DNA of 64,000 nucleotides, taken from positions 1 to 64,000 of the forward strand of contig JACRCN010000019.1 of assembly GCA_016219005.1 (NCBI GenBank), written 5' to 3'. Positions 4,996-6,972 of this stretch are shown piece by piece; position 1 is the stretch's first letter, and every line of letters starts with the position of its first letter. The stretch comes from Deltaproteobacteria bacterium. Lineage in GTDB: Bacteria > Desulfobacterota > Desulfobacteria > Desulfobacterales > SpSt-501. The translations under genes and the position numbers were made by a program. The notes under the pieces are model-generated. The model saw only the letters and a program-made list of their open reading frames with translations. It did not search any database and was not told the DNA's origin.

Positions 4996-5360
4996 GGTGC
5001 CCTCCTTGAATACCACCCCAACGGATCATCTGGGCTGAACAGGTCCGGTTGCGTCGCAACCCGTTTTAGGCGGACCACGTCCTGAATGCCTGGAACCAAG
5101 CCGATAATCTCAATCTGCGGAAAATTAAACGCCCAGATCGACCGGCAGGGCGGATATAGTTTGGTGGCAGAGTCAGAAAACTAAATACCCAGCGTTCAAC
5201 TCCACCATTGGTGCAAATAACTATACATTGTGGTAGGCTTCGTCAAGGCAGCTCCGCTAAAAAAACTGCTGAGCAACTCTCGGATGCTGCGTCGCACGCA
5301 ATGGTAGAATTGGCGGGATGTCGGCTGGTTGCGGGAATTGCAGGCCTATTCGTGGAGCGT
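4996..5360. other. Intergenic region, no gene recognised
   Basis: This 365-base gap separates two leftward genes. It should hold the promoter of the small exported protein, but no convincing -35/-10 pair, RNA gene or mobile-element trace was found. Confidence 0.5.
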
Positions 5361-6005
5361 TTAGTCCACCTCACAGGTTAGCTTCGTTTTAATTTCGTTT
5401 TGAAAAAGAAGCGCTGCTTCGATGTTATCGCCCCGTTTGACCTCACCCACTCCGGACGGTGTTCCGGTAAACAGGATATCTCCATTCACAATATCAACAA
5501 CCCTCCTCAAATGAGTGAGAATGTCTGCGACCGAGAATAGTTTCTGCGTGTAGCTTCCTTTCTGCCTGATTTTTCCATTGACGGTTGTCTGTATACTCAA
5601 GTGTTTGAAATCAGATACCCTGCATTTAAAGAAGTGGTCTGATATTACGGTGGAGCCTCTGAACGCCTTGGCTTCAAACCAGGGCCAGCCTTTCTCCTTG
5701 GCGATGTTCTGGACATCTCTTGCGGTAAAATCGATTCCACTGCCGACAAGCATTTCAGAACCTTCAGCCATGTCGGTATCCCGGGCAAGCACAAACACCA
5801 TTTCACCTTCGAAATGCAGAAGGCTGCTGTGTGCCGGATAGGGAATCCTGTAATCTCGGGCAATGGTTGAAACCGGCTTGTTGAAAATCAGGGGGTGCTC
5901 CGGTTTCTGGTTGTGGAGTTCTTCAACGTGTTCGATATAATTTCTGCCTACAAAATACATGTTTCTGATGTCTTTGATATCGATCTGAAACAGCTGCTTG
6001 TCCAT
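5361..6005 (-). CDS. Fumarylacetoacetate hydrolase family protein
   Basis: 214 residues, the length of the short YcgM-like branch of the FAH superfamily. Visible are GRNYIEHVEE (20-29), IFNKP (40-44), the metal-binding FEGEM (E66, E68), GIDFTARDVQ (90-99) with the third acidic ligand, the catalytic-type lysine in EAKAF (111-115), and GTPSGVG near the C-terminus. Relatives cleave acylpyruvates or act as oxaloacetate decarboxylase/tautomerase with Mg2+. No aromatic degradation genes are adjacent, so the substrate is unassigned. AAAGGA precedes the ATG. Confidence 0.85.
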   Translation of the reverse strand: MDKQLFQIDIKDIRNMYFVGRNYIEHVEELHNQKPEHPLIFNKPVSTIARDYRIPYPAHSSLLHFEGEMVFVLARDTDMAEGSEMLVGSGIDFTARDVQNIAKEKGWPWFEAKAFRGSTVISDHFFKCRVSDFKHLSIQTTVNGKIRQKGSYTQKLFSVADILTHLRRVVDIVNGDILFTGTPSGVGEVKRGDNIEAALLFQNEIKTKLTCEVD

Positions 6006-6567
6006 ACCGAAATTCCTTTCGCATCAAGGATATGATGTTCGCTTGAAGCACTTGCTTGTTCCTAACACAACTGAGCCATGGTTGCCATCCCGGTATCCCC
6101 GCGCAACCGGCCCGGCCGGCTGATTGATTTGAAGCGTTCGGGTTCTCGCCGGCTTCATCCTCCCTGAAGGCGCTGATCAAACCTGCCTCAAGCCCCAGTT
6201 CATCGGCTGGGAGCCGCCGGATGATCTTCCGGTCGTTGATGGCGGCAAACACATCCTTGGCTCCGCTCCCGTCTGCCATCGGTTCCGGTTTGACGGCACC
6301 TTCTCGAATTTTATCGGACGTGCTGGGTCTGTTGATAGAGTCGATGAGTGAGGTATCGATTCATACCGTGAATCAACGGGCTGGCACCGGCTATTGAAAA
6401 CTGGCGCGGGGAGCTTATGATGGTAGCAAGCACCCGCGAACCGGCTGGCTGACAATCGGCTGATTCGCGGCCGGGTGTTTATGTCCCGCAGGGTGGTTTC
6501 TTGAACGCTCGGAAACTGCGTGAGGCGACCGCAAGGTCGCAGGGGATGGTAGAGGAGGTCCGGAGAC
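6006..6567. other. Intergenic region with structured leader of the rhodanese gene
   Basis: No gene can be supported in these 562 bases. Two potential RNA hairpins lie in the part leading into the rhodanese gene: CACCCGCGAA (6431-6440) against TTCGC (6464-6468) and GGGTG (6473-6477) with a GGCC bulge, and GCGACC-GCAA-GGTCGC (6525-6540), a six-pair stem capped by a GNRA-type GCAA tetraloop. A leftward frame starting at 6279 has a nitroreductase-like N-terminus (DVFAAINDRKIIRR) but decays quickly and is probably chance or a relic. Confidence 0.4.
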
Positions 6568-6972
6568 ATGCAGACGTGGGTAAGAGTTCTGTTGGTGGCC
6601 CTGCTCGCCTTTGTCAGTTACCCGGGCACCGGAGGCCTGGCGGCCGAGGCCCCACGCATGGAAAAGGAACAGCTCAAAACACAGCTCGGCAATCCGGACG
6701 TCGTTGTCCTCGATGTCCGGGCCTTCACCGACTGGGCCATGACGAAAGAGAAGATCAAGGGGGCCGTGAGGGAAAACCCGCGGAACCTCGAGGATTGGAG
6801 CGGGAAGTACCCGAAGGACAAGACCATCGTGCTGTATTGTGCCTGAACGAACGAAGGCACGAGCGCAAGTCTTGCGCTCAAGTTCATGGAAAAGGGCTAC
6901 GGGAAAGTCTACGCGCTCAAGGGCGGCTGGGATGAATGGAGCAAGAGCGGCTACCCCATCGAACCAAAGTAG
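6568..6972 (+). CDS. Exported rhodanese-like selenoprotein (in-frame TGA read as Sec)
   Basis: Read through the TGA at 6844-6846, the frame gives 134 residues. An N-terminal signal peptide (about 1-25) precedes a single rhodanese domain: VVVLDVRAFTDW, then the active-site strand TIVLYC, then A-TGA-TNEGTSA, and on to VYALKGGWDEW and a PIEPK end at TAG 6970-6972. Coding character and rhodanese homology continue in the same frame for 41 codons after the TGA. Related proteins, as I recall them, have Y-C-A/S-C-P-N-E at this place, so the TGA stands where the second Cys would be, giving C91-A92-U93. A hairpin at 6861-6879 fits a bacterial SECIS. The alternative is a nonsense mutation; the hairpin and the Cys position argue against it. 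GAGGAGG and GGAG precede the ATG. Likely role: periplasmic sulfur transfer or thiol/selenol redox chemistry. Confidence 0.8.
6861..6879 (+). promoter_or_regulatory. Putative bacterial SECIS element
   Basis: GAGCGCA (6861-6867) and TGCGCTC (6873-6879) form a perfect seven-pair stem with loop AGTCT. The loop starts 21 bases after the TGA and has G as its second base. This fits known bacterial SECIS rules (loop 16-37 bases downstream, G among the first two loop bases), and the loop resembles the GGUC loop of E. coli fdhF. Confidence 0.75.

Follow-up and report, generated by a model that had tools for sequence, protein, structure and literature searches.

A rhodanese-fold selenoprotein gene of the NF041203 family with a putative C-x-U redox pair in a deltaproteobacterial genome

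The gene located at positions 6568–6972 of the window (the whole 64,000-nucleotide stretch of DNA analysed here) very probably encodes a full-length rhodanese-fold selenoprotein, in which selenocysteine (Sec) is residue 93. This degree of confidence applies to the identity of the selenoprotein only, and not to its redox chemistry.

The gene and its family

The features of the locus are as follows.

6554–6558, + strand: GGAGG, probable ribosome-binding site according to the consensus, with the ATG 9 nt downstream
6568–6972, + strand: gene of the predicted rhodanese-fold selenoprotein, 134 aa, Sec93, NF041203 rhodanese_LYCAU (sequence, translation and profile matches)
6568–6645, + strand: putative N-terminal signal peptide (MQTWVRVLLVALLAFVSYPGTGGLAA), read by eye; the N-termini of most relatives are hydrophobic
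6838–6840, + strand: TGT codon of Cys91, directly after the strand E86–90; TGA (Sec) in some relatives (translation, relatives and model)
6844–6846, + strand: TGA, predicted Sec codon, residue 93 (sequence and conservation in relatives)
6861–6879, + strand: predicted bacterial SECIS hairpin, stem of 7–8 bp, loop AGUCU or GUC (folding, shuffles, covariation and published criteria)

The reading frame starts with the ATG at 6568–6570 and passes through TGT (6838–6840), GCC (6841–6843) and TGA (6844–6846); 41 sense codons follow, and the frame ends with TAG at 6970–6972. The preliminary description of this DNA had reported the in-frame TGA (YCA-TGA-TNE) with 41 codons to TAG, and re-reading of the sequence reproduced it exactly. 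The standard ORF, as found by ordinary gene calling, ends at 92 aa, in agreement with the truncation stated in that description. The product had also been described as an exported rhodanese. The N-terminus, judged by eye, fits this, and we infer that the product is exported; the AlphaFold model shows a low-confidence helix at the N-terminus (H2–13).

The read-through product scores 56.8 bits against Pfam Rhodanese PF00581 (gathering cut-off 22.2) and 177.6 bits against NF041203 rhodanese_LYCAU (curated cut-off 115; 170.1 bits in the six-frame search), and the LYCA-TGA motif of the latter is located at 6832–6846. These scores, together with the predicted fold shown below, agree with the description as a rhodanese. 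NCBIfam NF041203 is listed as 'Rhodanese-like domain-containing protein form 3', CxU, with the example TKB26178.1 (PMC13188914), and the CxU rhodanese is listed as 'COG0607 form 2' with the same example (PMC9312934). A passage of PMC13188914 credits the CxU rhodanese to Zhang and Gladyshev 2005. The reviews list it as a predicted protein only (PMC13188914; PMC9312934), and a literature search by motif or model name returned nothing relevant and no report on the function of the family. The selenoprotein reading is right, but NF041203 is already modelled and listed in reviews, and the family is therefore known. The gene at 6568–6972 is a further member, sharing the domain, the LYCAU motif, the single Sec and a score far over the cut-off; there is no difference of substance, and this copy is unremarkable. 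Members are frequent among sulfate reducers and their relatives, and the family occurs widely in Desulfobacterota and neighbouring phyla.

TsoB, the rhodanese/DsbD fusion selenoprotein (NF045694), also carries Sec in the active-site loop of a rhodanese domain, but its Sec spacing is UxxxxU and the domain is fused to DsbD/thioredoxin domains; the product of 6568–6972 scores 30 bits against that model (cut-off 805). On contig C89 at about 5000–6900, the same genome encodes a fusion of rhodanese, DsbD and thioredoxin domains that contains two in-frame TGAs (YUAGLTU) and is likely a TsoB homologue. A second CxU rhodanese (FYC-T-U-PGQVTSAG), apparently with no signal peptide, is located on the minus strand of contig C100 at about 65297–65600.

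The TGA in relatives and the SECIS hairpin

Among the 58 genomes around the source genome, the closest mostly have a best match with a single TGA in frame (42–62% protein identity), and the single in-frame TGA is shared by same-genus and same-order relatives. The phylum was represented by 395 genomes; members over the NF041203 cut-off were found in 61 of these, most of them with an in-frame TGA. From a collection of named genomes, the best 80 loci were taken; 78 of these were readable by motif search, and every one of the 78 carries TGA at the site (73 as CxU and 5 as UxU). The TGA is conserved across Desulfobacterota families, Nitrospirota and Methylomirabilota. The hosts include Desulfobacterales, Syntrophobacteraceae, Desulfuromonadales/Geobacteraceae and MAGs of Nitrospirota and Methylomirabilota, and the cultured hosts include Desulfacinum infernum, Desulfospira joergensenii and Desulfogranum mediterraneum.

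The non-TGA copies are CxC (L092 and L093), CxS, CxA, CxT or SxS. Ser, Ala or Thr is present at the site in a minority of divergent copies only, mostly with no hairpin. Proteins with C-x-C at the TGA position were sought, and distant homologues were found in Burkholderia (DedA-rhodanese), Granulicella and Cupriavidus, with the loops YCACPNE, YCTCPSD and YCACPHE. Their best NCBIfam match is NF041203 at 68–70 bits, below the cut-off. These CxC rhodaneses share the YC[AT]C-P-x-[ED] loop with the Cys exactly at the Sec site, but have Cys for Sec and, in some, a fused DedA membrane domain; they have no TGA, and thus the SECIS is not needed there. The preliminary description had regarded another, non-Cys residue in close relatives as evidence against Sec; the residue found is Sec, or Cys in the CxC homologues.

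Downstream of the TGA, pN is 0.10–0.12 against pS of 0.46–0.53 in comparison with two full-length same-genus relatives (pN and pS are quoted because dS relative to L112 is saturated in the part before the TGA, which makes dN/dS unusable there). The amino-acid identity to the two relatives is higher after the TGA (0.80–0.83) than before it (0.61). These values indicate that purifying selection acts on the codons 3' of the TGA.

The hairpin at 6861–6879 consists of a perfect 7-bp stem (6861–6867/6873–6879) and the loop AGUCU, which starts 21 nt downstream of the UGA; drawn otherwise, the hairpin has 8 bp and the loop GUC. The hairpin alone has a folding energy of −10.8 kcal/mol, equalled by 1% of synonymous-codon shuffles, and the 51-nt stretch containing it has −18.2 kcal/mol (z −2.0). 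The bacterial SECIS model has an apical loop of 3–9 nt, an upper stem of 4–16 bp, an MFE of −7.5 kcal/mol or lower, a G within the first two loop positions and a UGA-to-loop distance of 16–37 nt (PMC13188914). The hairpin falls within all of these limits (loop 3–5 nt, stem 7–8 bp, G present, distance 21–22 nt, −10.8 kcal/mol), and its stem covaries in relatives; the SECIS geometry proposed in the preliminary description is thus upheld. When the whole window was scanned for TGAs that are in frame, have open flanks and are accompanied by a SECIS-like hairpin, 18 raw candidates were obtained. Four of them, including the TGA at 6844–6846, lie mostly outside competing ORFs of at least 150 aa; protein homology was looked at for this one of the four, and was seen.

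The hairpin is located 21–22 nt after the UGA in 44 of 45 TGA copies of relatives, and was found in 77 of the 78 loci of the named genome collection. In 71% of the 45 TGA copies it beats 95% of synonymous-codon shuffles, against none of 13 non-TGA copies, most of which (Ser, Cys, Ala or Thr at the site) have no SECIS-like hairpin. According to the alignment of relatives, 7 of 8 stem pairs are changed on both sides, and 25 cells are compensatory, where shuffles give 8.3. For the covariation score, the alignment reaches 0.242 and the shuffles 0.113 ± 0.012; none of 500 shuffles is as high, and all slid versions of the stem alignment score below the unslid one. The threshold of −7.5 kcal/mol fits the relatives poorly: when contiguous stems are scored, 24% of the TGA copies pass it, although the hairpin is present in nearly all of them. 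Therefore, the synonymous-shuffle comparison and the covariation were used instead. One CxS copy (L094, genome G246) has TCA at the Sec site and retains a SECIS-like hairpin; this is perhaps a recent Sec-to-Ser change.

Selenocysteine machinery and decoding of the UGA

The source genome contains a SelA match (609 bits), two SelB (378 and 281 bits), two SelD, both of whose genes contain an in-frame TGA, and a tRNA-Sec (selC) with the anticodon UCA. Thus selA, selB, selC and selD, the absence of which had been named as evidence against Sec, are all present. The selB genes are located on contigs C89 (33315–35207) and C100 (12853–14739). The weaker one lies directly 3' of the tRNA-Sec, and is followed by cysS, a 2-hydroxyacyl-CoA dehydratase-like pair and selD with its in-frame TGA (products assigned by eye). 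Two strong SelB matches are also present in several of the 58 related genomes. TGA is the commonest stop: of 43 long ORFs in the window, 22 end with it, and the genetic code therefore looks standard.

That the TGA at 6844–6846 is likewise a real stop, with a 92-aa truncated protein and a remainder explained by pseudogene decay or a sequencing error, would suit this ordinary use of TGA and the result of standard gene calling; the conservation of the same TGA across Desulfobacterota families, Nitrospirota and Methylomirabilota, however, already refutes this, and the purifying selection on the downstream codons, the position of the TGA within the active-site loop and the SECIS covariation leave it next to no probability. 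Alternatively, the UGA may be read by a route other than Sec, through Trp suppression, a reassigned code or insertion of another residue. UGA read-through as Trp is known in some bacteria. However, UGA is the most frequent stop of the long ORFs here, the tRNA-Trp gene seen in the genome has the anticodon CCA while a tRNA-Sec with UCA is present, the relatives with no TGA have Cys, Ser, Ala or Thr and never Trp, and the hairpin accompanies the TGA. Such a route is very improbable. The assignment of Sec to this TGA in the preliminary description is borne out by the NF041203 match, the conservation, the SECIS and the Sec machinery.

The active-site loop and its possible chemistry

The AlphaFold2 model of the product, calculated from a 40-sequence alignment, shows the rhodanese fold with a pLDDT of 90 overall and about 95–98 in the domain. 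Compared with solved rhodanese domains, it gives a Foldseek E of 3e-8 and a Z of about 16. The fold is shared with GlpE and other single-domain sulfurtransferases (1gmx: Z 15.0, r.m.s.d. 2.4, 105 residues aligned), whereas the identity is 15%, and the product differs in its probable export, the C-x-U motif, a Glu in the loop and a longer loop. D49, R51, Y90, C91, residue 93, E96, S99 and the ALKGGW motif are invariant in the alignment.

In the model, C91 comes right after the active-site strand 86–90, residue 93 is in the loop, and the helix 97–108 follows the loop. In the HMM alignment to 6mxv, read by eye, residue 93 and not C91 falls on the canonical nucleophile Cys, whereas the model has C91 directly after the strand. 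In terms of the canonical C-x4-R/K (or T) loop, the sixth residue is Glu96 when counted from C91 and Thr98 when counted from U93, and the two alignments disagree. As C91 is placed by the model and residue 93 by the 6mxv alignment, both are at the active site, and either may be the nucleophile.

TGA is present at both positions (YUAU or YUTU) in L125, L126, L128, L133, L184, L024, L071, L077 and L081, several of which are the same loci from two collections. These relatives probably have two Sec in the active-site loop and one SECIS. The two UGAs are six bases apart and the single SECIS is 3' of both; the first UGA is 27–28 nt from the loop, within the spacing rule. Sec is at both positions in 6 of the 117 sequences of the tree, which needs about 4–5 changes, of which at least 2 are forced by well-supported branches; many forks of the tree are unresolved. 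U-x-U apparently arose several times independently, and the pair L161 (CAU) and L184 (UAU) shows a recent switch. PMC13188914 gives one Sec and CxU for NF041203, and the string 'UxU' is absent there. A tentative reading, of distinctly less than even probability, is that the two sites are interchangeable between Cys and Sec, that the lineages that independently became U-x-U may form a diselenide, and that the fold would serve periplasmic selenol/thiol redox chemistry and not sulfur transfer.

The genomic neighbourhood was rejected as a functional clue, because no conserved neighbour gene is common to the whole family among the 79 loci compared. In 18 of the 79 (e.g. L121, L134 and L136), a co-directional, strongly hydrophobic protein of 330–520 aa is encoded upstream, ending in most of them shortly before the rhodanese gene; that of L121, the one tested, has no Pfam match. 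It is a possible membrane partner of the rhodanese. Smaller groups of loci have DUF547, a pyridine-nucleotide disulfide oxidoreductase or LeuC nearby. Neither the upstream membrane protein nor any of these three is present at the 6568–6972 locus.

The main rival to a redox relay is a selenoprotein that acts as a classical sulfurtransferase, with a persulfide carried by Sec93 or Cys91 for delivery of S or Se. The Rhodanese domain over the Pfam cut-off and the rhodanese fold agree with this, and one of the two alignments puts Sec93 in the place of the nucleophile, followed five residues later by Thr98, similar to the MST active-site loop, which is of the C-x4-T type. On the other hand, the second Cys/Sec two residues off is conserved and itself becomes Sec in relatives, as expected for a selenosulfide or diselenide pair, and the acidic Glu96 is invariant in the loop, where neutral or basic residues are usual in rhodaneses. 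We consider the sulfurtransferase a serious candidate, at somewhat below an even chance.

As Cys91 and Sec93 are conserved jointly, and as both positions switch between Cys and Sec across the family, we favour the redox pair. In the proposed mechanism, the UGA at 6844–6846 would be decoded as Sec93 by SelB–Sec-tRNASec, directed by the predicted SECIS at 6861–6879 inside the coding sequence, and the protein would be exported via the Sec translocon. In the active-site loop, Cys91 would then be paired with Sec93 as C-x-U. The Sec93 selenolate would attack sulfane sulfur or other oxidised sulfur or selenium species in the periplasm, resolution of the adduct by Cys91 would give an intramolecular C91–Sec93 selenosulfide, and this would be reduced again by a thiol reductase of the periplasm. 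An exported C-x-U thiol/selenol redox relay handling sulfane sulfur is thus the likely mechanism, at about even probability; the export, the chemistry, the substrate and the reductase partner are inferred, the redox relay from residue patterns.

Standard gene callers miss the C-terminal third of the product of 6568–6972, including the active-site Sec, and correct annotation therefore matters. The U-x-U, C-x-U, C-x-C and C-x-S forms of the family are a natural mutation series on what Sec adds to the rhodanese loop.
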